A stretch of 33,836 nt of DNA from assembly GCA_030595125.1 (NCBI GenBank), contig JAUVDV010000057.1:1-33836 (forward strand). The letters are read 5' to 3'. Numbering within the stretch: the first letter of the stretch is position 1; every line of letters starts with the position of its first letter. The translations under genes and the position numbers were made by a program. The DNA is from Deltaproteobacteria bacterium (GTDB lineage Bacteria > Myxococcota_A > Polyangia > JAAYKL01). Shown in pieces: positions 14,529-33,283 of the stretch. The notes under the pieces are model-generated. The model saw only the letters and a program-made list of their open reading frames with translations. It searched no databases and was not told the origin of the DNA.

Positions 14529-16946
14529 TCAATCCCCAATGTAGCCCAACGCTTCCAGTTGTTTTCGAGTCTCGGGATCGATAACGGTGTCTTCTTTTTT
14601 GTGTTTCTTCTTCGAAGCGGGGGCCCTGGCCCGATCGACGGTCTTCGGAACATCGTCGGCGCCGCCAACCGATCCCGTATCCACGAACCTGCCCTGGTGA
14701 ATCCCGAGCTGCTCGTGCAGCGCCGCGAGGGTGATCGGCATCTCGTCGCTCAGATCGGTGGTCTCCGCCGGATCCGTTTCCAGATCGAAGAGGGTTGTGG
14801 AAAGCCCGCGATAAATGAGCTTGTACCGACCCATCCTCACAGCGCGCTGGCCGTACAGGAAATCGCTGAACGAAACCCCGGGCCACCGATCGCCGGCGAC
14901 ACCATTGAGGAGCGGAACAAGGCTTCGCCCCTCGACATCACCCGGAGCTTCCACGCCCGTCAACTCGCACACCGTTGGGAACACGTCCACCAGACCGACC
15001 TCCGCGTCCGACCTGGCCTTGCCCTCGTGCCCGCTCGCCCCGGGCAAACGCATCAACAGCGGCACGTGCAGCATCTCCTCGTACATCGAATGCCCGTGCC
15101 CCACTGAGCCGTGCTCGAAGAACTCCTCGCCGTGATCCGAGGTGACAACGATGAGTGTATTCTCGAGCAACCCCTGGTCCGCCATGGCCTGGTAGATCCG
15201 TGCGAAGTGATCGTCGTGGTAACTTATCTCTCCGTCATAGAGCGCCTCCAGCCGATACTTGTCCCTTTGCGAGAGCTTGACCGATCCCTTCTTGATGCCC
15301 TCCAGCAACTTGGCGGTTCCCCGTGGGGTCACGACGCCGTTGTAGGGCTCGTCATCGTACAGGGCGCGAAACTCCTTTGGCGGAATGTACGGCACGTGAG
15401 GATCGATGGTGTGCACGTACAGGAGAAAGGGTTTGTCCCTGGGCCTTGACTCGAGCCACGCGATTGTGTCCCGGGCCACGAACTGAGCCCTGTTGGCCTT
15501 CCCTTCACGCACGTAGTTTCTCCAGGTGTCCCAGCCTTTTTCAAAACCAAACTTGCCCGAAACGTAGCCGTTGGCGATAAACGCGGCGGTTGTGAAACCC
15601 AGCTCGCGAAAGTGCTCTGAGATGAGCTTGACCGTGCGCGGGATCTTGTTCTTCTCTGTCTTTGTGCGGTGGGTCTCGGGAAACAATCCCGTCAGCAACG
15701 TCGCCACGGACGGCTTGGTCCAGTTTTCCTGCACGAGGGCCCTGTTGAAGACCATCGATTCGGCCCCGATCTTGTTCATGAAGGCCGTCTGAACGCGGGT
15801 GTTGTTATTGTAGAGAGCGAGGTGATCCGCCCTCAACGTGTCGATCAAAACGATCATCACGTTCTTGGCGGTCATGGCTCCCGGAGCCGTGTCCGCTTTC
15901 CTCTTCGCGGAGTAGAGCCCGGCGCCGGATATAACCACCTCCCCGGCGGTGGCCTCAAACGTGATAGCAACCACTTTGCCCGCATGTCCGGCCAGGCTGA
16001 CGACCATGCTCGTGGATCGTTTACCCGCCTCCAGATTTGCAAGCGGGATCTCCTCGCCGTCGTCACCCCGGGCGGTAACCGAGAGCTTTGCAGTTCCGTC
16101 TACGAGATGCGACCGCACCTTGCCTCGGATCACGGCCCCCTTCGGAACAGGGATATTGTAAGTAACCGACTCGCCCCGGCCGAGCAGAATGCCGGGCTCC
16201 TTTCCTGTCCGGTCCGGATAGATGACCGCGTCGAAGGACGACGCGCTGGGCCCCGAGCCCGAATCGACAGGTGTTATTCGAATGTAGTCCACCGCCAGGG
16301 CAGCTCCCTTCCCGTCGTGGGCCGGCCTCCTGGTGTTGAAGCGCAACATCAGCTCGTTGCGCCCTTTCTTGATGCCGGTGGCGAACTCGATGGCCGAGTG
16401 TCCGAAATCATCCTTGGAATCCAGCTTCATGGTCCCTATCTGTTTGCCGTTCAGGTAGACCCGCCCCGAGGTGCTTCCGACGGCTCTGGCCCTGACAGTC
16501 ACCGTCCCGCCGCCGACCTCCGACTTCGACGCGTCGAAGTATATGCGACCGGTCGCGCCGCTCAGGTAGCTGAACGTGGTCCCTCCCTCGTCGTAGTCTC
16601 CGCGCCAGCCGGTCTTCCAGTCGCCCAGTGTGTACTTGTGCCTGGCCGGGGTCCCGAAATCCACCAGCAACCCGCCGGAGCGAAGGTGCGCTCCGCTCAG
16701 ATTTTTCGCAAAATCGTAGATCTTCTCGGAATCATTCACTGCCTGGGATTGCGCCGTATCGGAGATTGTTGTCCCGCTGCGCTCTACCGGTTTTTTCGTC
16801 CCGGCGGGATCATCCGCCACGTCGCCCTTCACGGCAGGAGTCGGCTTGCTCGGCCCGGGCGCCCGACCGCCGTTGCCGCACATTGCAAAAACGACCGCCG
16901 CGATCGCCCCCGACATGACCCCGATTGCCAGCGTCTTGAATATCAT
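14529..16946 (-). CDS. Sulfatase/phosphatase-superfamily protein with N-terminal beta domains
   Basis: The 805-residue protein starts with a hydrophobic signal or anchor (residues 1-22, ending A-M-C-G, not a canonical lipobox). Two beta-rich domains cover about 80-350. An alkaline-phosphatase/sulfatase fold from about 365 begins I-V-L-I-D-T-L-R-A-D-H-L and includes metal ligands in S-D-H-G-E-E-F and G-H-G-H-S-M. The site that normally carries formylglycine, C/S-x-P-x-R, reads T-K-P-S-V. It therefore cannot mature to formylglycine. A threonine nucleophile would resemble phosphoethanolamine or glycerolphosphate transferases. Substrate unknown; probably acts outside the cytoplasmic membrane. The gene stands alone, convergent with xseB. 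Confidence 0.85.
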   Translation of the reverse strand: MIFKTLAIGVMSGAIAAVVFAMCGNGGRAPGPSKPTPAVKGDVADDPAGTKKPVERSGTTISDTAQSQAVNDSEKIYDFAKNLSGAHLRSGGLLVDFGTPARHKYTLGDWKTGWRGDYDEGGTTFSYLSGATGRIYFDASKSEVGGGTVTVRARAVGSTSGRVYLNGKQIGTMKLDSKDDFGHSAIEFATGIKKGRNELMLRFNTRRPAHDGKGAALAVDYIRITPVDSGSGPSASSFDAVIYPDRTGKEPGILLGRGESVTYNIPVPKGAVIRGKVRSHLVDGTAKLSVTARGDDGEEIPLANLEAGKRSTSMVVSLAGHAGKVVAITFEATAGEVVISGAGLYSAKRKADTAPGAMTAKNVMIVLIDTLRADHLALYNNNTRVQTAFMNKIGAESMVFNRALVQENWTKPSVATLLTGLFPETHRTKTEKNKIPRTVKLISEHFRELGFTTAAFIANGYVSGKFGFEKGWDTWRNYVREGKANRAQFVARDTIAWLESRPRDKPFLLYVHTIDPHVPYIPPKEFRALYDDEPYNGVVTPRGTAKLLEGIKKGSVKLSQRDKYRLEALYDGEISYHDDHFARIYQAMADQGLLENTLIVVTSDHGEEFFEHGSVGHGHSMYEEMLHVPLLMRLPGASGHEGKARSDAEVGLVDVFPTVCELTGVEAPGDVEGRSLVPLLNGVAGDRWPGVSFSDFLYGQRAVRMGRYKLIYRGLSTTLFDLETDPAETTDLSDEMPITLAALHEQLGIHQGRFVDTGSVGGADDVPKTVDRARAPASKKKHKKEDTVIDPETRKQLEALGYIGD

Positions 16947-21871: not shown

Positions 21872-24715
21872 TTAGCGATCTATCGATGGGGGGGAAAGGG
21901 CAACCCCAGGTTTTTTCGACACTTCGATCTCTCCAATACTCACCCATCCGCGCTTCCACACATTCGGTCCGGGCAACGCTTCGATGTGCTTTCCTTCGCA
22001 CTGAAGCGCAAGCGACCCCTTCATGCGCCCTTCCTGCCCTTTCCAGGCCAGGTGGAATACATCCTCTACAATCCGGTTCACGGGGAAGTAGATAAACGGC
22101 AGCGATGAACCTACTGGCTCGTGCGATCCCACACCCCGTATCTTCGCCCGTTTTCTATCCAAATTCAGGACGACCTTCACCCTGCAAGTCTGCTGTACAC
22201 GCTCCGTGGTGCGTAGGTACAATGCGATCCTCAGCGGTTCGTCGATAGTAATCCGGCGGTCTCCCATATCGATCGCAACCATCTCGATCCCGTTTTCAAA
22301 CTTCACATTGAGAGGTTGCGCGCTCGCAGGGACTTGATCGACAACCGAGTCGTCGAGCGCTTTCACGATCTGCTTGCTTGCCCGATACTCCTCCCAGGCA
22401 AAGAGCCGCTCCTTCATCTGCTCGATAACTTCGGGACGTTCTGCCGATATATCCTGTGCCTCCCTGGGGTCGGCGACGATGTCATAAAGCTGGTATGTTT
22501 GGCTTTTCGTTCGATAGATCATCTTGTATCTGGGACCGACAAGGACGCGGTAGTCTCCGATCTCTGCTGTTATCTCTCGATCCGAATCACAGGAGTCCAG
22601 GAGGTGTGGAACAAGCGTCGATGCAGTCATCCCGTGCCGACCTCCGTCGATTCCCACGAGGTTCAGGATCGTTGGCGCAACGTCCACATGACTGGCCGGA
22701 CAAGACACCTCCCCCGGTTCGAGCCCGGGTGAAATAACCATAAGGGGGATCCTGAGCACCTCCTGCCAGACGACATTCCCGTGTGTCCTCGCGCCGTGCG
22801 CTCCCAGCATCTCACCGTGGTCAGACATCAGAACAATTGCCGTATCGCGGTCGAGCCCAAGCTCTGTCATGCGGCGAAGCAAGCGCCCGATAGCTCGATC
22901 GGTGTAGAACACTTCTCCATCGTAGCGTCCTTTGTACCCTCTGCCGAATTTGGGGATCCCCCTGTGCTTCACGTAAGAGGAGTGCGGATCCATGAAATGC
23001 ACAAAGGCAAACCAGCTCTCTTGCTTTTGCGCCTCTATCCATCGGATCGCACGGTCGACAACCTTTTTAGATGTCTTTGCCTTCCAGAACCTGGACAGCG
23101 GACGAGCCTGGCTCGCGTCCACGTGTTCGAAACCCTGTACGACTCCCGAAGGCTTCCGCATCCCGTAATAGGTCAGGAATGCCGCCGTCCGAAAACCCGC
23201 ATCCCGCATCACCTCGGCAATTGTCGTATTTTCTTCGCGTATGCCCAGCGGGTGTACTTCCCTGTTCCAATGGATCTCGGGGATGGAACGCCCGGTGAAC
23301 AGAATAGGAAACGCGAATCGGGTCGTCGGCGACGCACTGTACGCGTTTGTAAAGCGCACACCCCTCCTGGCAAGGATATCGATATTGGGTGTCGTATTTT
23401 TTTTGTACCCGTAGCATGAGAGGCGATCCGCGCGAAGTGCATCCACCACCATCAAGAGCACCCGCTTGGGCTGTTGCATAGTGCGGGGCATTTGCACAAA
23501 GGAAGGTCTCGTTTTCCAGGGAAGCGACACGAGCCGATCTCCTCCACGGCAATTGTCGTCGATGCCGTTACCAGGTATCTCGACCGCGCCCGGATTTCGC
23601 ATGGCGTCGAAGTCGTCGCAATCTCCCCCAAAGAGCGGGGAGTAGCCGTCTCCGTCAAAATCGATCTTCGACCCCAGATCCACCAGGAGCCAGCGGGAAG
23701 GGCGGATTTCCATTGCGAATCGCGGACGGAACTTCTCGGACAGGTGCGCGCTCACGATCGCAAGGATGCCGACGGCCGCTATCACATATGCGAGTCGGCG
23801 CAGAACAGGAGAAGGTGTAACGGGCAGAAGTAACCAGGCTCCCGCGCCGAACAGTAATACGTTTGCGAGATACAACAACTCCAGGAGTCCCGTGGAAAAC
23901 AAATACGGCCGCCATATACCCGCAGCGACACAACCCAGGATGCCTGCGAGCACCAGCGCAACACCGATTGATATCCATGATTCACGCGCGCCGCGAAGAA
24001 GTTTCTGTGCCAGGATCGACGTGGCCACAAAGGCCGCGAATGCGACCAGGAGCGCGAAGAGATCGACGAACGCACAGAGCCAGGGTCGATCGATGAGGAC
24101 CGTGCGCGCCGGGATAGCGGCGCCCAGCACGATGCCTGCTGCCATGAGCGCCATGCCCAGGTTCGAAAGCGACCTCGCAGCTCGCACGACTGGGAGCACT
24201 GTCCACGCAGCGGCCAAACCGGGCCGGCCGGCGAGAAATACGAGCCCCCATACCAACGCACCGCACATCAGCCCTCCCAGTGCCGAAACCGTTGCTCCTA
24301 TCGGGAGGCCACTCGCGAACGAACCGGACGAGCTGTTATCGGTCGCAAGCCGAGCGATGAGGTCCGCCAAGAATACCGCGACAGCCGCCGTAGCGCCGGC
24401 GATCGAGAACCGCAACCCGGTCGATCGAACGCGTTGGCCCTGTTGGTTTCCACTGCCCAGACAACGTCGAACAATGTAAGAAAGCGCCGGCGCCAGACAG
24501 AGGGCAACGACAAAGACACCGACTTCCAGAACGGCCACGAGAATGGCCGCAAGTCGGGCCTGGGCAAAGTATGTTGCCGCCCACCGATCGAGGACAAACA
24601 GCGACGAGTATAGCGCCGCAAGCAAGAGAGCCATGGAAGCGACAATTGCGGCAACATCCTTTGGGGTTGCCCCGGCGGTCACTCTCCGGCGATTGTTCTC
24701 ATGCCTGTCGTTCAT
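21872..24715 (-). CDS. Polytopic membrane sulfatase-superfamily protein with calcium motif
   Basis: The 947-residue protein has about ten membrane segments in residues 30-335. An Asp-rich calcium motif of the MopE type follows at about 345-390 (D-F-D-G-D-G-Y, G-G-D-C-D-D, then G-N-G-I-D-D-N-C). A sulfatase/alkaline-phosphatase domain starts at about 420 with V-V-D-A-L-R-A-D and has S-D-H-G-E-M-L. A beta-rich tail ends the protein. The usual formylglycine site reads S-P-T-T-R, which does not fit C/S-x-P-x-R. The membrane-plus-catalytic layout resembles LtaS and EptA, so envelope modification is possible. The substrate is unknown. No strong ribosome site is visible. It ends 12 bases before xseA and may share its transcript. 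Confidence 0.85.
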   Translation of the reverse strand: MNDRHENNRRRVTAGATPKDVAAIVASMALLLAALYSSLFVLDRWAATYFAQARLAAILVAVLEVGVFVVALCLAPALSYIVRRCLGSGNQQGQRVRSTGLRFSIAGATAAVAVFLADLIARLATDNSSSGSFASGLPIGATVSALGGLMCGALVWGLVFLAGRPGLAAAWTVLPVVRAARSLSNLGMALMAAGIVLGAAIPARTVLIDRPWLCAFVDLFALLVAFAAFVATSILAQKLLRGARESWISIGVALVLAGILGCVAAGIWRPYLFSTGLLELLYLANVLLFGAGAWLLLPVTPSPVLRRLAYVIAAVGILAIVSAHLSEKFRPRFAMEIRPSRWLLVDLGSKIDFDGDGYSPLFGGDCDDFDAMRNPGAVEIPGNGIDDNCRGGDRLVSLPWKTRPSFVQMPRTMQQPKRVLLMVVDALRADRLSCYGYKKNTTPNIDILARRGVRFTNAYSASPTTRFAFPILFTGRSIPEIHWNREVHPLGIREENTTIAEVMRDAGFRTAAFLTYYGMRKPSGVVQGFEHVDASQARPLSRFWKAKTSKKVVDRAIRWIEAQKQESWFAFVHFMDPHSSYVKHRGIPKFGRGYKGRYDGEVFYTDRAIGRLLRRMTELGLDRDTAIVLMSDHGEMLGAHGARTHGNVVWQEVLRIPLMVISPGLEPGEVSCPASHVDVAPTILNLVGIDGGRHGMTASTLVPHLLDSCDSDREITAEIGDYRVLVGPRYKMIYRTKSQTYQLYDIVADPREAQDISAERPEVIEQMKERLFAWEEYRASKQIVKALDDSVVDQVPASAQPLNVKFENGIEMVAIDMGDRRITIDEPLRIALYLRTTERVQQTCRVKVVLNLDRKRAKIRGVGSHEPVGSSLPFIYFPVNRIVEDVFHLAWKGQEGRMKGSLALQCEGKHIEALPGPNVWKRGWVSIGEIEVSKKPGVALSPPSIDR

Positions 24716-24893: not shown

Positions 24894-26858
24894 TCAGAAG
24901 CACTCGTAGGCGCCGCGATCGTAACCGCCGCCCGTGGGCCTGGAATTACCCTCGATATCATCCGATGGGACACCGGTGACCGCACCAGTGGCCGAATCGA
25001 TGGCTGGAGAGGAGGACGAGGCGATGTGCAGGTCGTAGGGAGCGCTTCCCACGAATCCGGGATCTGACAGGAGGTTCTGATCCCCCGGCGCGGTGGGGCC
25101 GTCCTGAAGGATGTTGTAAGTGATCGAAGCGCCGGAGGGATAAACGTCGGTGGATTGCGGAACGTTGGCCCACAGGATGGAGTTGGTGATGGTGGGAGTC
25201 GTGCCGGTCATGAAGATCCCGCCTCCCTCAGATCCGTCGTTCGACCAGATGGTGCAGTTCATCACGTTGAACGTACCGGAGTACTCGAAGAACAGGGCTC
25301 CCCCCTCACCGTAGACGTAGCCCCCGGAAGTATTGGAGCGAAAGACGCAGTTGGTGGCGCTCAGGGTGCCGCTCGACCCCAGCGATGCGTAGACCGCGCC
25401 GCCCTGTGTGCGGGGACTCTGAGCGATGTTGCTGTCGAAGAGGCACCGATCCGCGACCGTGGTGGAGGCTCCCGCCAGATACAGGGCCCCACCATATGCA
25501 AAGGTTCCGGCCGAATCACCGCTGGAGATGTTGGAGTCGAAGGTGCTGTCGGCGATGGTTGTTGTTCCTCCCGATTTGTAGATAGCGCCGCCGAATCCAC
25601 CATCGTTGTCGATGAAGTCGCACGCATCAATTATCAGCGGGCTGTTGCTGCCGTAGATTGCTCCGCCGTAGCCTCCCATCCCCGAATTGTTTGACTCGAA
25701 GATGCAGTCGGTGAAGTTGGTTGCCAGGCTCGTCGCAAGGTGGACGGCGCCTCCGGTGCTCAGGTTGTCGGTAGTTTGGTTGTCGTAGAAATAACAACCC
25801 ACGAAGACAGGGCTCGCGGTGTCGGCATTGTAGACGGCGCCGCCGGCCGCATCTGCCGAATTCTGATCGAATGTAGTATCGATGATCTGCGGGGACGCTC
25901 CATTCATATTATAAATGGCTCCTCCCTCCCCCGGGGTGCCTGCCCCGACTCCGGGGGCGCCGTTCTGAGTGAATACGCAGTTCTGGACCAGAGGAGACAC
26001 GCCGTCGTTGTACATGCCGCCACCGTGGTTGTCTTCGACTTCAAAGGTACTTGTGGCGTGGCCGCCGGTGATGGTGAAACCGTCGATCACCGAGTCGTCC
26101 GCGCCTGTCACCACGTGGTGTACGCTGCTTCCGCCGTCTATCTGAGAAATGTTTGTATCCCAATCCCGCCCGGCCCACGTCTCGGCTGTGTCGGAGAAGC
26201 CGCCGTACAGCCTGACGGTGGGTCGCATCAGGCAAGTGGCCTCCTCCGCGATGCCCTCCGTGGGGGAGTAGCTGCCTGCCTTCACCCAGACGTGGCAGTA
26301 GGTGATGCCCGGATCCCCCGACACGGCGGACTGAGCGGCGTAGATTGCGGCCTGGACGACAGTGAACGCGTCAGTCCAGTTGATGCCTGTTTCCGCTCCG
26401 GTCGCGGCGGCGTCCACATACCGAACGCAGGTCCCGCACTGATCGAAGCTGACGTCACCCCAGCCGTCCACGCAGCTGTTGCAGTCATCGGCCGGATCCC
26501 AGTTGCCCGCGCACTGACACTCTGCAGTGGTGGTGGTAATATTTACGCAGACTTGGTGATCGGTGCAGTCCTCGACAACCCCCTCGCTCTGATCGCACGA
26601 ATCAAAGGAGTGGACATCTCCTCCCGAGCATTGCTCGGAAACCGAGGGAGTACAATCCGTGTCGGTGTCGGTATCGGAATCGGTGTCGGAATCTGTATCG
26701 GAATCTGTGTCGGAATCGGTATCGGCGTCGGTGTCGGCGTCAGTATCGGTATCGGAACTCTCACCCTCCGCCTTCTCGTAATCTCCCAGGCCCAGAACTG
26801 TGTGGCAACCGGCCAGATACAGGGCAGCGATTGCAATGATGATTGAATTCCTGCCCAT
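24894..26858 (-). CDS. Surface lipoprotein with Asp-Thr linker and parallel beta-helix
   Basis: The 654-residue protein has a lipoprotein signal ending L-A-G-C18. A tether of Asp alternating with Thr, Ser or Ala follows at about residues 36-68. A Cys-rich, EGF-like short region leads to a beta-helix made of G-G-x-x-x-N and 'I-D-x-x-x-F' turns. The end (S-R-P-T-G-G-G-Y-D-R-G-A-Y-E) is typical of choice-of-anchor Q or polymorphic-outer-membrane-type helices. Such proteins are adhesins or carbohydrate-active surface proteins; no catalytic residue is recognisable. It starts two bases after the TPR/PEGA gene, with GGGGAGG inside that gene's end. It closes a four-gene same-strand run. Confidence 0.85.
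   Translation of the reverse strand: MGRNSIIIAIAALYLAGCHTVLGLGDYEKAEGESSDTDTDADTDADTDSDTDSDTDSDTDSDTDTDTDCTPSVSEQCSGGDVHSFDSCDQSEGVVEDCTDHQVCVNITTTTAECQCAGNWDPADDCNSCVDGWGDVSFDQCGTCVRYVDAAATGAETGINWTDAFTVVQAAIYAAQSAVSGDPGITYCHVWVKAGSYSPTEGIAEEATCLMRPTVRLYGGFSDTAETWAGRDWDTNISQIDGGSSVHHVVTGADDSVIDGFTITGGHATSTFEVEDNHGGGMYNDGVSPLVQNCVFTQNGAPGVGAGTPGEGGAIYNMNGASPQIIDTTFDQNSADAAGGAVYNADTASPVFVGCYFYDNQTTDNLSTGGAVHLATSLATNFTDCIFESNNSGMGGYGGAIYGSNSPLIIDACDFIDNDGGFGGAIYKSGGTTTIADSTFDSNISSGDSAGTFAYGGALYLAGASTTVADRCLFDSNIAQSPRTQGGAVYASLGSSGTLSATNCVFRSNTSGGYVYGEGGALFFEYSGTFNVMNCTIWSNDGSEGGGIFMTGTTPTITNSILWANVPQSTDVYPSGASITYNILQDGPTAPGDQNLLSDPGFVGSAPYDLHIASSSSPAIDSATGAVTGVPSDDIEGNSRPTGGGYDRGAYECF
26655..26753 (-). 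repeat. Six-base repeat coding the Asp-Thr/Ser/Ala tether
   Basis: The plus strand reads as imperfect G-T-A/G/C-T-C-G/T units of six bases over about 100 bases. They code alternating Asp and Thr/Ser/Ala. Such short-period coding repeats can change length by slippage. Confidence 0.75.
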
Positions 26859-26860
26859 GA

Positions 26861-27838
26861 CTAGAACCTCCCCGTTACAGAAAGAAATGCGCTGTCTTCT
26901 GTAATCGCCGGCGCCACCACCGGTATCTCTTCCCTGCCGAGGCGGGGCTCAATGAAGAACAGGGCCACGCCCGCTGCCACCCCGGCGGCGGCAACGCCGA
27001 TCAGGACGTTGGTGGTGGTTGCCAGAGTGCGCGTGGAATCCAGGGTGTCCCACTGGGCCGGGGGACAGTCGTCTCCCGTACAGTTGTTCTCCAGGGTCTT
27101 CGCGCGGGACGAGGCGATCCCTCCCGTGACCGCAGCGGCTATTCCGGAGGCAACTCCGACCCCGCCGGCCACCCATGTCCATACGCGTTTCCGGGGCTCC
27201 TCCGGGGCCACCGCAACCGTGGTGGGGACGGGGAGAGGTTTCGGCTCTTCTTTCACTTCCACTGTCAGCTCGATTGTCTCCCCCCCGGCGACCTTCACAA
27301 CCTCCACCAGAAGGTCCTCTCCTGCATGCTGTACCACCACCTCGTGCTTGCCGATGTCCACGAGCACGGGCTGCTCCAGAGGCGTGGTCCCGGCGGCCTC
27401 GCTGTTGATCTTGACCCTGGCCCCGTCCACAGGGGAAACAACCTGGATGAACCCCACCAGGGTCTCCAGTCGCTCAATTTCTATTTCCACTGCTTTTCGC
27501 CGTTTCGGTTTGATCTTGTCGCCGCCCTCGTCGAGGTAGCGATTGTAGGCCGTGAACGCGGCGGCGTAGTGCTCCAGGTGGTTTTCGACCTGCCCGATAT
27601 TGTATAGGATCTTGTAGCTGGGATTGAGTTCGTAGGCCCTCTCGAAGGCGATGGCGGCCAGTTCGCTCTTGCCCTCTTTGTACAGGGTGATTCCCTGCTT
27701 GAACTGCTTTCGGGCTTCCTTGTCGGGTTTGCTCGCCACTTTCGCCTGCGCCAGACCGCAGCACAACAGGAGAGCAATCAACGCCAATAAGTGCGTCAGT
27801 ATTCCCATCATTTTCTTCTTTGTCGGTAATGAATTCAT
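26861..27838 (-). CDS. TPR and PEGA domain membrane protein
   Basis: The 325-residue protein begins with a signal sequence (to about residue 32). Two or three TPR repeats with the Y-x-E-G-K-x-x-L-A-A-x-x-F-E-R-A-Y-E pattern cover residues about 40-110. A PEGA-type beta domain (V-D-G-A-R-V-K-I-N, P-L-E-Q-P-V-L-V-D-I-G-K-H) lies around 130-190. A Pro-rich linker and two hydrophobic segments in the C-terminal third follow. This build is common in Myxococcota and may act in envelope assembly of surface proteins. It lies between two lipoprotein genes, and its stop is two bases from the next start. An alternative start is the ATG pair at residues 10-11. Confidence 0.82.
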   Translation of the reverse strand: MNSLPTKKKMMGILTHLLALIALLLCCGLAQAKVASKPDKEARKQFKQGITLYKEGKSELAAIAFERAYELNPSYKILYNIGQVENHLEHYAAAFTAYNRYLDEGGDKIKPKRRKAVEIEIERLETLVGFIQVVSPVDGARVKINSEAAGTTPLEQPVLVDIGKHEVVVQHAGEDLLVEVVKVAGGETIELTVEVKEEPKPLPVPTTVAVAPEEPRKRVWTWVAGGVGVASGIAAAVTGGIASSRAKTLENNCTGDDCPPAQWDTLDSTRTLATTTNVLIGVAAAGVAAGVALFFIEPRLGREEIPVVAPAITEDSAFLSVTGRF

Positions 27839-27891: not shown

Positions 27892-28869
27892 TCATTGACA
27901 GATAATCACTTCGGCCGCGTCGAAGACAGCTCCATACCAATCAAGCCACCATTCCGTATCGACGGCGCCGTCCGAGAACCGAATGTAGCGTAAACCTGCG
28001 CCGTATTCCGTGAAGACATGGGAAACCTCGACCCAATCGTCGTCGTCCCAGAAACAATCCGCAGTAGTGCATGTGGCGTCGCCATCGGTCGTCGTGGCGA
28101 CAGTCCAGTTATTGATCACGATCTGGTCACCATTGAGAAGCTCGACAGTCACCTCATACTCATCCGGCGCGTAAATTTCCCCCACCCACTCCGAGACGCG
28201 GATCTCGGGCTGTGCATCAAGCTCCTCCTCGGAAAAACCAAGGGACAGGAGATCGATCTGCTGAAAGCGACGACACCATTCGTAAGAGGTTCCGAAGTAT
28301 CGATCGCCCTCGTATGCATACGTGGAGACGATGGATGCCCAGCCGTAGCCACCATTTTCAGTAACCTCCCATCCGGACATGTCCCCGTCCTCTGCTCCCG
28401 GGTTGTCGAGCAAGTTGTCGCTGCAATCAGTTGCGGTATCTGTGTCTGTATCGGTATCGGTGTCGGTGTCGCCTGCCCCGAGCACGGTGAATGCGTCCTC
28501 CAGGATTGCTGACCGACCTCGGGGATCGACGATGCTCACCGAGTAGGTCCCGGCCGGCAGGTCATCAGGAACGGTCGCCTCGAGGTGTTGTCCGTCAATC
28601 CAGACCATCGATTCGAGATCATTGTCCCCAATCGCGCCCTGAAATTCGTCGTCGATTTCTATTGAATCGCCGGAGCAATTCGCATTGCGGTACATGGTAG
28701 GTTCGAGGGCAAGTCCCTCTATTGTGACTTGTGCGCTCTGCCCCGCGACTACGTGATCGGGTGTGACCGAGATCAAAGCAACCGCGTCACCGTCGCCGGG
28801 AGCCATGGCGCAACCGGTCACGACGAGCAGCAAAACCAACAGAACTCCTTTTTTCATTTGTGTGCTCAT
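27892..28869 (-). CDS. Lipoprotein with IPT/TIG-like and F-box-associated (FBA)-like domains
   Basis: The 325-residue protein has a lipobox V-T-G-C20. Residues 31-130 form an IPT/TIG-like Ig fold. An Asp-Thr linker covers 134-148. Residues 151-322 resemble the FBA domain of human FBXO2/FBXO6 and NCCRP1: N-L-L-D-N-P-G-A-E-D (152-161), G-W-E-V, Y-E-W-C-R-R-F-Q-Q-I-D-L (196-207), H-V-F-T-E-Y-G-A-G-L-R-Y-I-R-F (284-298) and W-W-L-D-W-Y-G-A (307-314). In FBXO2 the last region and nearby residues bind N-glycan core sugars. Here the FBXO2 Y-W-K series reads W-W-L, so binding may differ. It likely sits on the outer surface. No strong ribosome site precedes the start. It is second in the lipoprotein run, 27 bases after the lectin gene. 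Confidence 0.85.
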   Translation of the reverse strand: MSTQMKKGVLLVLLLVVTGCAMAPGDGDAVALISVTPDHVVAGQSAQVTIEGLALEPTMYRNANCSGDSIEIDDEFQGAIGDNDLESMVWIDGQHLEATVPDDLPAGTYSVSIVDPRGRSAILEDAFTVLGAGDTDTDTDTDTDTATDCSDNLLDNPGAEDGDMSGWEVTENGGYGWASIVSTYAYEGDRYFGTSYEWCRRFQQIDLLSLGFSEEELDAQPEIRVSEWVGEIYAPDEYEVTVELLNGDQIVINNWTVATTTDGDATCTTADCFWDDDDWVEVSHVFTEYGAGLRYIRFSDGAVDTEWWLDWYGAVFDAAEVIICQ

Positions 28870-28896: not shown

Positions 28897-31716
28897 CTAC
28901 AGCATCTCGCAGACATAGGGCCGGGCGGTCGTGCAGGGTAAGTCGTTCCACGTGCCGGCGCTGTAAGAGATCTCGGTGCAGTCCTCGTTATTGCTGGCGT
29001 TGTCGGGTTGCTCCGAGCCCCAGTTGTGCCAGGAGTAGGCGTCGCCGTCCGTATTGACGAACCGCCGGACGTCGAGGACCCAACTGCCTTCGCTGTAACC
29101 GTCGATGAAGACGAGATAACTGCCGGCATTGAGATACAGCCTGAGCAGCGAGTTCAAGCCCGGCCCACCATCATCGTCGCAGCCGTAAACCGTGGTTCCG
29201 AGACACGATGATGTGGAAGAGCAGCTGTTGTACGTGCCATTGTCGACCTCGATGACCGTGTCGTAGTTGCTACCGTTCGTTGAGAACACCCAGTACCCGG
29301 CGTTCGTAATGCTGATCTGCGTCAGGGAATCCCCGTAGCCGGATGGCCCACAGTCCAGGTACCAGTCGTCAAACGTCATGTTGTTCCCCGTGTAGTGACC
29401 ACCTGCGGAACTCAGGAGGCAGCATTCGGAGCAGTCGTCGCAGTTGCCGAGGGCTGCCGAGGCGGTGGCGTTGTCCTTGAGACCGATCCAGTAGTTGGCC
29501 GACGCAAGGCCGTTTACAAAGGTGTTCTCCGCAGCGGTGGTGATAGACGCCAGGTGCCCACCGTCTGCGACGCAATCCGCTTCGGCGGCGCTCCAGCTCG
29601 TAGCGGCGGAAACATACCAGTAGCAGTGATTATTGGTGCTCCAGATGGTGCCCAGGCACGTCTGGCACACTCCCGCGCCGGTGCATCCCGCAGTGCACAC
29701 CTCCATGGTCGGTGTGTAGCTACAAGCGCCGCTGGAGCACGTGCCGTTGGAAGTGTAATGATATGCGTTGCCGCCACTGCAATAATCGGACGGAAGTGTA
29801 TCGCACAGATCGCACCCCGCACCGCTCCCACCCGCCCAGCACAGGTAGTCCGATCCGCATGCCGATCCCAGATTACTCCAGGGCACCGACCCGTCCGGGA
29901 TGCAGGTCCCGCCCCCGTCACAATGCTGGTCTACTGTTCGGGTCTGAGGCTGCTCCAGGCATCCGCCTGATCCGCCGGAGCACTGATACTCGGTTACCGA
30001 GCTGCCACAGGATACGGTGGTTCCGTAATGGTTTGGCAGGCAGATCCCGGCGCCGTCGCACGTATCCTGATCAGAGCAGATCGCTGGACCGCTGCCACAG
30101 TTGACACCCGGCCCCACAAACGAATTCGACGGGCACCCCCCCACCCCGTCGCAGTACTCCGTGACATCGCAGTCACCCACTGCCATTCGACAAATCGTGC
30201 TCGGCGTCGCCAGGTTCTGATCACACGTCCCCATCCCGTCACAGGAGTCCGCCGAGTCGCACGTGGAACTCGAAGAGGAACCACACGGTGTACTGAGAGG
30301 CTCGTGATTGGATTGGCACGAGCCGGAACCGTCGCACGTATCGGGATCTGTGCAGTCAGTGTTGGAAAAATCGCCGCAGAATATGCCGGACAACTCGTAG
30401 TTGTCGAGACAGCTGCCGGAACCGTCGCACATATCGGCGTTGTCGCAATCATCCGAATAGGACGACCCGCAGGAGGTAGAAGAAGATTCGTAGTTAGACA
30501 GGCAAGTACCCACTGAATCGCAGGTATCCGGGTTGTCGCAATCGTTGTTCAGTGTTGAACCACAAAGGGTCCCCGGAGGGAGCAATCCTCCGCCTCCACA
30601 TGAACCCGCGCCGTCGCAGTGATCCGCTATCTCGCACGCGCTCGCCGCAGAGCACGAGGTGGTCGACGGTTCGTAGTTGGGCAGGCAGTTCATTGCGGAA
30701 TCGCAAGTATCCGGGTTGTCGCACTCGTCATCATTGGGATCTCCGCAAGATGCCCCGGGGCTCTTGATCGAATCCGAGGGACAACTACCTACCCCGTCGC
30801 AGAATTCCGCGATGTCGCAATCGTTCACCGCGACCCTGCACTCCACGGTGTTCGGCTCGATATTGGTATCGCACAAACCCGAGCCGTCGCACATATCAGC
30901 GTGATCGCAGATGGAATCCGCGGATGAACCGCAAGCGGTGGTGGAAGGCATGTAGTTGGGCTGACACGCTCCGACGCCGTCGCAGGTATCCGGATTGTCG
31001 CACTCGCCAAAAGACGTATCGCCACAAGGCGTGCTGGCGGGCTCCTGGTTCTCCAGGCAGGTTCCGGAACCGTCGCAGGTGTCCGGGTTGTCGCACTCGC
31101 TAAAAGACGTATCGCCACAAGACGTGCTGGCGGGCTCCTGGTTCTCCAGGCAGGTTCCGGAACCGTCGCAGGTGTCCGGGTTGTCGCACTCGTCGTCGGC
31201 AGGGGATCCGCAAGGCGCATCCACCGGCTCGAACTCCTCCGGGGAGCATCCGCTCGCGCTCACGCCGTCGCAATACTCCGCCACGTCACAGTCGCTCGCC
31301 GCGGGGCGACATTCGTCATCCGTGCCCAGGATCTCATCCGCGGGACAGTCTGCGTTCTCGCCGTCACAGTACTCCTCCACGTCGCAAATACCTGTGACAT
31401 CCCGGCACAGCACCGAGGAGTCCTGGAGGCTACAGGTTCCCTCGAGCCCGGGCAGGTTGCATGCGTCGCAGTCACCGTCGCACACCGTATCGCAACAGTA
31501 TCCGTCCACGCACAAGTCCGGGTCGCCGCACAGTTCCTCCGCGTTGTCTTCATCACACTCGACAGGACCATCGTCCGTGTCGCTATCCGAATTAGAATCA
31601 GAATCAGAATCACTACTGCTCGACGTGTCGTCTTCGACAGGAGTCGCCTCCAACGTTGCGCACGACACAATGAAAAGGATGATGAATAAGAACAGGCAAT
31701 TAATCAGAAAACGCAC
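28897..31716 (-). CDS. Cys-rich repeat lipoprotein with a C-type lectin domain carrying a nested domain
   Basis: The 939-residue protein starts with GTG, six bases after AGGAGG; the nearby ATG is out of frame. The lipobox is I-V-S-C19. An Asp-Ser linker covers about 32-49. Many Cys-rich repeats of about 31 residues, with C-D-N-P-D-T-C-D-G-S-G-T-C cores (disintegrin-like spacing), run to about 640. The C-terminus is a C-type lectin: first part 687-750 (W-I-G-L near 745), second part 888-939 with W-x-N-W, Q-P-D and W-N-D motifs. QPD usually goes with galactose-type binding in lectins. Residues 751-887 are an inserted module resembling the bacterial pre-peptidase C-terminal (PPC) domain. It is first in the four-gene surface run. 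Confidence 0.87.
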   Translation of the reverse strand: MRFLINCLFLFIILFIVSCATLEATPVEDDTSSSSDSDSDSNSDSDTDDGPVECDEDNAEELCGDPDLCVDGYCCDTVCDGDCDACNLPGLEGTCSLQDSSVLCRDVTGICDVEEYCDGENADCPADEILGTDDECRPAASDCDVAEYCDGVSASGCSPEEFEPVDAPCGSPADDECDNPDTCDGSGTCLENQEPASTSCGDTSFSECDNPDTCDGSGTCLENQEPASTPCGDTSFGECDNPDTCDGVGACQPNYMPSTTACGSSADSICDHADMCDGSGLCDTNIEPNTVECRVAVNDCDIAEFCDGVGSCPSDSIKSPGASCGDPNDDECDNPDTCDSAMNCLPNYEPSTTSCSAASACEIADHCDGAGSCGGGGLLPPGTLCGSTLNNDCDNPDTCDSVGTCLSNYESSSTSCGSSYSDDCDNADMCDGSGSCLDNYELSGIFCGDFSNTDCTDPDTCDGSGSCQSNHEPLSTPCGSSSSSTCDSADSCDGMGTCDQNLATPSTICRMAVGDCDVTEYCDGVGGCPSNSFVGPGVNCGSGPAICSDQDTCDGAGICLPNHYGTTVSCGSSVTEYQCSGGSGGCLEQPQTRTVDQHCDGGGTCIPDGSVPWSNLGSACGSDYLCWAGGSGAGCDLCDTLPSDYCSGGNAYHYTSNGTCSSGACSYTPTMEVCTAGCTGAGVCQTCLGTIWSTNNHCYWYVSAATSWSAAEADCVADGGHLASITTAAENTFVNGLASANYWIGLKDNATASAALGNCDDCSECCLLSSAGGHYTGNNMTFDDWYLDCGPSGYGDSLTQISITNAGYWVFSTNGSNYDTVIEVDNGTYNSCSSTSSCLGTTVYGCDDDGGPGLNSLLRLYLNAGSYLVFIDGYSEGSWVLDVRRFVNTDGDAYSWHNWGSEQPDNASNNEDCTEISYSAGTWNDLPCTTARPYVCEML
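30995..31180 (-). repeat. Two nearly identical 93-base tandem units in the Cys-rich region
   Basis: Copies at 30995-31087 and 31088-31180 differ at only a few positions, while neighbouring units of the same protein are much more diverged. One unit codes 31 residues. The similarity points to a recent duplication within the repeat row. Confidence 0.75.
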
Positions 31717-31728: not shown

Positions 31729-31825
31729 TGAAAATAACTCTCCATTTGATTAGTTGTTCATTTCTAGCATAGTAACCAAGAAATAACGGAGTGATGACAA
31801 AGTTTCCAAAGCAGTTTAGTCTATC

Positions 31826-31839
31826 GTTCGAAAACGAAC
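31826..31839 (+). promoter_or_regulatory. Small hairpin in the leader of the cyclophilin gene
   Basis: GTTCG-AAAA-CGAAC is a perfect five-base stem with a four-base loop. It lies about five bases before the AGGAG site of the cyclophilin gene. It could modulate translation or be chance. Confidence 0.3.
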
Positions 31840-31857
31840 TGTCACAGGAGTTATTAC

Positions 31858-32373
31858 ATGACCAATCCAATAGCTGTTTGCGAAACATCCCTGGGAACCT
31901 TCAAGATGGAGCTGTTCTCGGACAAGATGCCCATAACTGCCGGTAACTTCGTCGAGCTCGCGAAGAGCGGATTTTACGACGGGCTTCATTTTCACCGTGT
32001 CATCAAGGGCTTCATGTGCCAATTTGGCTGCCCTCACAGCAAGGACCCCAACAGCTCGCAGGCGGGAACCGGCGGTCCTCCTCACGGCACAATCCAGGAC
32101 GAACACCCGGATGACGCCAAGTTTTCCAACGAGCCGGGGACCATTTCCATGGCCAACACTGGCCGGCCCAACTCCGGGGGGTCCCAGTTCTTTCTGAATA
32201 CGGTGCACAACAGCAACCTGGACTGGTTCACCGGTGGACCCTCGAAACACCCGGTATTCGGCAAGGTGTCGGAGGGGATGGACGTGGTCACAGCCATCGA
32301 ATCCACGCCCACAGGAGCCGGAGATCGCCCGATCACGCCGGTCAAGATGATCAAGGTAGCCATTCAAGAGTAA
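31858..32373 (+). CDS. ppiB: Cyclophilin-type peptidyl-prolyl cis-trans isomerase
   Basis: The 171-residue protein has no signal peptide and is likely cytoplasmic. The cyclophilin core has [15 protein letters not shown] (catalytic Arg), G-S-Q-F-F-L-N-T and H-P-V-F-G-K-V segments. It speeds folding at proline bonds. CAGGAG lies nine bases before the ATG. The length matches short bacterial PpiB enzymes. It is divergent from the lectin gene, and the following lipoprotein gene is in the same direction 58 bases away. Confidence 0.94.
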
Positions 32374-32431
32374 TCGGCTCGCGCGCATTTGGAGCCTTTT
32401 CTATAAGTCGGATTAATTCAGGAGAATCATC

Positions 32432-33283
32432 ATGAAGAAACACCCTTTTCTGCTCTGCATGGCCCTCATTGTCTCTTTGATGCTGTCATCCTGCGATGGC
32501 GATCCCGACAACAAGAACGACGGCGGGACCGACGCGGGGCTCGACTGCCAGAACGGCGTCTGGGACGGGGATTACATGGTCGCGGATCTGACCGCAGTTT
32601 TTGAACTCGTCAACTACACCGAAGTATCCGGCCACCTCGATATAACGTCAACGGATCTGCAGGGACTCAACGGCCTCGAATGCCTCGAGACGGTGGGCGG
32701 ACGACTCCAGATAACCAGCCAACTCATGACCGATCTCGGCGGCCTGACCAATCTCACCTCCGTCGGCGACAACCTGACAATCATCGGCAACCAGGCGCTC
32801 CTCAACCTCTCCGCCCTGGGCAACCTCAACAGCCTGGGCGGGCATATCATCATCGCCGACAATATCGAGCTGCTCAATCTCGACGGCCTGTCGAGCCTGG
32901 CCGGAGCAATAAACGGTCCGCTCTCTCTGTACAACAACCTTCACCTGGCCAACGTGGGCGGACTCTCGGGAATCACGTCGATCGGCGGCATGTTGAGAAT
33001 CGCCGACAACGGGGATCTCCAAAATCTCAACGGATTGTCCTCTATCTCGGGCGCCCTCGGCGGCACGCTCCAGATCGAAGGGAATGACATACTCAACAAC
33101 GTTAGCGGTCTCGACGGACTGACTTCCCTCGTCGATTACTTCAGCATCCAGGACAACCCAACCCTTCCCACCTGCGACGCGCTCGCCCTGCTCAACGGGC
33201 TCTCGGGCTTTGGCGGAGACGTGTGCATTCGAGGCAATCTGGCAGACAGCTGCGCGGACGTGACCAGCGGCTGCCTCAACTGA
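32432..33283 (+). CDS. Lipoprotein with leucine-rich receptor L-domain-like repeats
   Basis: The 283-residue protein has a lipobox L-S-S-C21, followed by an acidic Asp/Asn/Gly linker. Repeats of about 24 residues (L-x-G-L-x-x-L-x-x-V-G-G-x-L-x-I, then N-x-x-L-x-x-L) run through the rest, with four cysteines near the C-terminus. This matches the L-domain type leucine-rich fold of receptor ectodomains, which serves in binding. AGGAG precedes the ATG by eight bases. It is on the opposite strand from the lipoprotein run but has the same overall design of lipid anchor, acidic tether and binding domain. Confidence 0.85.
   Translation: MKKHPFLLCMALIVSLMLSSCDGDPDNKNDGGTDAGLDCQNGVWDGDYMVADLTAVFELVNYTEVSGHLDITSTDLQGLNGLECLETVGGRLQITSQLMTDLGGLTNLTSVGDNLTIIGNQALLNLSALGNLNSLGGHIIIADNIELLNLDGLSSLAGAINGPLSLYNNLHLANVGGLSGITSIGGMLRIADNGDLQNLNGLSSISGALGGTLQIEGNDILNNVSGLDGLTSLVDYFSIQDNPTLPTCDALALLNGLSGFGGDVCIRGNLADSCADVTSGCLN

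Follow-up and report, generated by a model that had tools for sequence, protein, structure and literature searches.

A predicted bacterial lipoprotein carrying an F-box-associated (FBA) domain and its relatives in Myxococcota

The FBA lipoprotein gene and its surroundings

The window analyzed was the whole 33,836-nt stretch of contig JAUVDV010000057.1 (assembly GCA_030595125.1) from a Deltaproteobacteria bacterium. An ATG-start ORF at 27892..28869 on the minus strand encoded a predicted 325-aa FBA-domain lipoprotein, and this ORF, together with every motif quoted in the initial annotation, was present in the translation. The protein displayed four successive parts, all encoded on the minus strand: (i) a signal peptide plus lipobox at residues 1-20 (28810..28869), identified by a pattern and hydropathy script, with VTG-Cys20 (ATG-C in orthologues) behind a hydrophobic stretch and Ala at +2; (ii) a spacer module at residues ~27-131 (28477..28791), conserved in orthologues; (iii) an acidic Asp-Thr repeat linker GDTDTDTDTDTDTD at residues 132-146 (28432..28476), differing in length among orthologues; and (iv) an FBA domain (PF04300) at residues 150-323 (27901..28422), assigned by Pfam and predicted structure. 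Ala at lipoprotein position +2 is compatible with outer-membrane sorting. Pfam detected no F-box in the protein, the N-terminus of which was composed of the signal peptide and spacer. The initial annotation had described an Asp-Thr linker behind an Ig-like module on a lipid anchor: the lipobox and linker were indeed present, but for the Ig-like part neither Pfam nor the PDB sequences gave a significant match, TIG/Ig families being absent at E<=1 and the sole weak Pfam match being PF09099 (E 0.17). By eye, the spacer resembled an IPT/TIG-type beta module and may be one; the full-length protein model, made from a three-row alignment, reached a pLDDT of 31.5.

Two congeneric genomes carried orthologues of the FBA lipoprotein with 84-88% identity, and the gene is under purifying selection among them (dN/dS 0.15-0.25 for the whole gene and 0.14-0.29 for the FBA part). 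The order deaminase, receptor-L-domain protein, cyclophilin, and FBA was common to the source genome and both congeners. In the window, the cyclophilin gene was located at 31858-32373 (plus strand), and the ORF 31816-32388 (minus strand) was rejected as spurious in its favor. The Receptor L-domain protein was encoded at 32432-33283 (plus strand; PF01030, 7.2e-8), with similar ORFs near the FBA gene in both congeners; this domain is familiar chiefly from growth-factor receptors of eukaryotes.

A gene at 28897..31716 (minus strand), co-directional with the FBA gene and lying upstream of it across a 27-bp gap, but not found at this place in the congeners, encoded a 939-aa C-type lectin-domain lipoprotein (PF00059, 1.8e-19) with an acidic Ser/Asp linker and Cys-rich repeats. 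The match to its C-type lectin domain was split in two by a long insert, and its Cys-rich repeats gave weak disintegrin matches; further C-type lectin proteins were found on two other contigs of the source genome. Downstream of the FBA gene and co-directional with it lay a gene for a TPR-PEGA protein (26861..27838, minus strand; Pfam), which adjoined the FBA gene in genome G001 too, in line with a gene for a Chlamydial PMP-repeat protein with choice-of-anchor Q domain (24894-26858, minus strand). Two large sulfatase-family proteins were encoded at 14529-16946 and 21872-24715 (both minus strand), and in genome G002 a tandem pair of sulfatase-family ORFs lay downstream of the FBA gene. No neighbor shared by FBA genes across genera was found, nor any conserved glycan-processing partner. 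The FBA gene had a GC of 0.56 and a GC3 of 0.64, which were low for the 33.8-kb window; other genes in the window were equally low, and base composition was thus uninformative on transfer.

Domain identity, predicted fold, and the bacterial FBA family

The hmmscan match to PF04300 (F-box associated region) had an E-value of 3.5e-32 and covered profile positions 7-175 of 175 at residues 150-323, its score of 112 bits (cut-off 32.4) excluding chance. A whole-genome profile search recovered PF04300 as a single copy in the source genome (E=2.6e-32). Mouse FBXO2/Fbs1 was the best PDB-sequence match of the 325-aa protein in phmmer (5.6e-24), followed by Fbs2 and FBXO44, with no other significant match.

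The AlphaFold2 model of the FBA domain, built on an alignment of 20 bacterial FBA domains, was an antiparallel beta-sandwich with a pLDDT of 92.4 and a pTM of 0.89. The first ten Foldseek matches were Fbs1, Fbs2, and FBXO44 chains (best E 1.3e-16, 2e33). In VIA-align, the model matched Fbs1/Fbs2 at Z 23.6-24.0 and 1.4-1.5 A over 165 residues (2e31: Z 24.0, 1.5 A, 165 residues, 38% identity), while FBXO44/FBG3 shared the fold but was farther than Fbs1 (Z 21.0, rmsd 2.3 A). The next folds after the FBA structures were the bacterial glycan-binding modules CBM61 (Z 16.3; TmCBM61, beta-1,4-galactan) and CBM16 (Z ~15), which belonged to the same beta-sandwich class at Z 15-16 and 15-20% identity; CBM61 additionally gave a weak profile match to the bacterial FBA (E 0.0038). 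CBM61 and CBM16 are attached to glycoside hydrolases. Since Fbs1-type structures ranked first, the domain was clearly an FBA domain, with bacterial glycan-binding modules as its wider neighbors. The FBA domain recognized in the initial annotation was therefore genuine: neither a missing PF04300 match nor an unlike fold was encountered.

FBA domains are known as glycan readers of animal cytosolic ubiquitin ligases. Whole-genome searches found FBA above the curated cut-off in 11 of the 318 genomes of the source class plus two other genomes of the phylum, giving a Myxococcota total of 20 FBA domains in 13 of ~592 genomes, including a one-contig 16-Mb genome (16,040,666 bp); 14 control genomes contained none. 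No NCBIfam model matched the FBA lipoprotein. Bacterial FBA domains had 31-41% identity to Fbs1, about as low as that between distant bacterial FBAs. Assembly artefact or eukaryotic contamination might be suspected of a domain best known from animals, but the gene had bacterial neighbors on its 33.8-kb contig, a lipobox, and no introns, its orthologues occupied the same gene neighborhood in two other genomes, and FBA matches were present in the one-contig genome; contamination or chimerism was ruled out by this synteny in independent genomes together with the one-contig genome, and its probability was judged negligible.

The bacterial FBA proteins displayed modular variation: (i) an acidic linker plus FBA, mostly with a lipobox, in the source protein, L023-L027, L030, L031, and L037; (ii) EGF arrays plus FBA in L033-L035, and EGF plus two FBAs in L032; (iii) Big_5 plus a C-type lectin domain plus two FBAs in L023 of a congeneric genome, this joining in one protein making a C-type lectin-FBA link plausible; and (iv) Cys-rich repeats plus FBA in L028 and L029. 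The ORFs of L028 and L032 extended beyond contig ends on the N-terminal side. Under a stringent hydropathy threshold, the script called a lipobox in about half of the bacterial FBA proteins; in most others one was recognized by eye, and as a set these proteins look exported. Two tandem FBA genes were found in one relative (L027:7904-9705) and two FBA domains within a single protein in another (L023:248-2941), which suggests repeated local duplication.

A plant survey table listed zero bacterial FBA proteins, with an F-box also required (PMC3719486). No paper describing bacterial FBA proteins was found in the literature searched, although Pfam may already list bacterial members. The domain family is already known and Pfam recognizes it at once; the bacterial set is a real new branch, with at least 20 exported-looking FBA domains in new architectures involving EGF arrays, C-type lectins, and lipid anchors.

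Putative sugar site and proposed function

Mouse Fbs1 residue numbers were taken from the full-length chain 2e31, and mouse Lys281 and Asp216 were assumed to correspond to human Lys280 and Asp212, respectively. In Fbs1, binding of GlcNAc-GlcNAc requires Phe177, Tyr279, and Trp280, and the beta5-beta6 and beta9-beta10 loops contact each other; the target is the innermost N-glycan core, accessible on denatured glycoproteins (PMC4603797). Asp154, Asp212, and Lys280 of human Fbs1 are predicted contacts, Ala changes having mattered at two of them (PMC5457524). FBXO44 has a Tyr/Tyr/Trp triad yet binds no sugar owing to different loop packing, and it acts on a non-glycoprotein (PMC4603797).

In the alignment to mouse Fbs1, the Phe177, Tyr279, and Trp280 positions were occupied by Tyr196 (28282..28284, minus strand), Trp307, and Trp308 (together 27946..27951, minus strand), and the YEWCR motif closely resembled FEWCR of mouse Fbs1. 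Across the 20 bacterial FBAs, the Phe177 position was aromatic in 18, the Tyr279 position in 11, and Trp280 was kept in all. The Lys281 position was Leu here and Lys in 0/20 bacterial FBAs, while the Asp216 position held Ala in the source protein and Glu in the two congeners, with Asp, Glu, or Asn in 14/20. By alignment, the triad was aromatic in kind (Y/W/W), but Lys281 and Asp216 were not kept. Three acidic residues (A1 positions 89, 159, and 170) were invariant in 20/20 bacterial FBAs: (i) Asp236 (28162..28164, minus strand) in the beta5-beta6 pocket loop, Ser219 in Fbs1 and Cys in Fbs2; (ii) Glu306 (27952..27954, minus strand) in the beta9-beta10 pocket loop, Val278 in Fbs1 and Gln in Fbs2; and (iii) Asp317 (27919..27921, minus strand) near the C-terminus, Thr in both (Thr289 in Fbs1). 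Because the two pocket loops touch in Fbs1, Asp236 and Glu306 likely form a pair of acids at the edge of the pocket, where they may have a part in sugar or calcium binding.

Compared to Fbs1/FBXO2 and Fbs2/FBXO6, the bacterial domain aligned over its whole length with 38-41% identity and shared Trp280 and an aromatic residue at Phe177 (Tyr, as in FBXO44), but the bacterial protein was an exported lipoprotein without an F-box rather than a cytosolic ubiquitin-ligase subunit, and it lacked Lys281 and Asp216 while having the three extra invariant acids. Since FBXO44 has the triad without any sugar binding, a lectin function does not follow from the triad by itself, and the aromatic site would be permissive for a lectin rather than proof of one.

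The FBA lipoprotein was, on balance, considered a stalked, outer-membrane-tethered putative carbohydrate-binding module with a presumed role in adhesion, a reading held with moderate confidence. The exported lipoprotein would probably be held in the outer membrane and face outward, and the spacer plus flexible acidic Asp-Thr stalk would present the C-terminal FBA beta-sandwich. This domain, a homologue of the one with which animal Fbs1 binds sugars, would most likely be a carbohydrate-binding module contacting its ligand at the loop edge equivalent to the Fbs1 GlcNAc-GlcNAc site, through Tyr196, Trp307, and Trp308 plus Asp236 and Glu306; the ligand would probably be an extracellular polysaccharide, a glycoprotein glycan, or a matrix glycan, with adhesion as the presumed effect. 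The carbohydrate reading drew on homology, CBM-like nearest folds, kept aromatics, exported architectures, the lectin neighbor, and the dN/dS of 0.15-0.25; against it stood Lys281 in 0/20, Ala at the Asp216 position, an aromatic residue at the Tyr279 position in only 11/20, the FBXO44 precedent, and the lack of a glycan-processing neighbor across genera.

The same FBXO44 precedent would allow the FBA fold to have been kept for a protein ligand (e.g., a partner lipoprotein or matrix protein), in which case the protein would be no lectin: FBXO44 with its Tyr/Tyr/Trp binds no sugar and acts on a non-glycoprotein (PMC4603797), and the polar sugar contacts of Fbs1 were not conserved in bacterial FBAs. 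However, the nearest non-FBA folds were glycan-binding modules, C-type lectin domains were fused to or adjoined FBA, and the pocket-loop Trp was kept in 20/20, so that a protein ligand was regarded as unlikely.

Two special cases of the carbohydrate reading were also weighed. Binding of the N-glycan chitobiose core in the manner of Fbs1, by which the protein would adhere to eukaryotic prey or hosts, drew on the aromatic Tyr/Trp/Trp triad, the YEWCR/FEWCR similarity, and 41% identity to Fbs1; it appeared quite improbable given the loss of polar contacts (Lys281 to Leu, Asp216 position to Ala), the absence of an aromatic residue at Tyr279 in about half of the bacterial FBAs, the fact that Fbs1 targets the innermost core, which denatured glycoproteins expose (PMC4603797), and the equal compatibility of chitin, peptidoglycan, or other GlcNAc polymers with the aromatic platform. 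High-mannose N-glycan specificity would be a possibility, though a less likely one than binding of an unspecified glycan. In the other case, the protein would belong to the cell surface or matrix, and its FBA would bind exopolysaccharide made by the cell itself. This matched the modular, exported build of the proteins, their long acidic linkers, and the matrix polysaccharides for which the phylum is known, as well as the several FBA copies per genome in some species, but no exopolysaccharide operon was recognized next to FBA genes and the distribution was sporadic (13/~592 genomes), leaving this case rather doubtful. Whatever their ligands, bacterial FBAs constitute a natural comparison set for residues making or breaking sugar binding; they might also supply new lectin reagents and offer a way to test where the animal domain came from.

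Phage relatives and possible origin

Three IMG/VR phage proteins, L043 (3483-5501), L047, and L048, had a C-terminal FBA-like domain starting with NPGAETGDTTGW. These domains resembled the bacterial FBA in their NPxAETGDTTGW start and in having Asp at the Asp236 and Asp317 positions, the phage rows being weakly aligned, but they lacked the Trp-bearing beta9-beta10 segment common to bacterial and mammalian FBAs. As a lead only, this pattern hints that bacterial FBAs may keep older features and that the mammalian ones may have changed. A tentative scenario, possible though not favored, is that extracellular Myxococcota FBA lectins were the source of animal FBA, which was then fused to an F-box, the bacterial acids (possibly calcium-binding) being shared with phage/CBM-like relatives and lost in cytosolic animal forms; if true, an outward-facing glycan binder became a cytosolic glycoprotein quality-control receptor.

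The eukaryotic sampling consisted of mammalian PDB sequences, and eukaryotes were represented in the tree by two mammalian sequences. In one tree, the mammals were placed beside some bacterial groups with support of 95/97, and the deep forks collapsed when more phage rows were included; rooting the FBA tree with the phage relatives was abandoned, the branches being too long. Mobile spread of FBA was likewise rejected as a candidate: tblastn searches of plasmids and of phage genomes returned no match, and the sole IMG/VR match, L043, was a phage-protein relative below the PF04300 cut-off (E 0.23). L043 and its relatives belonged to PHROG 12736, annotated as a virion structural protein.
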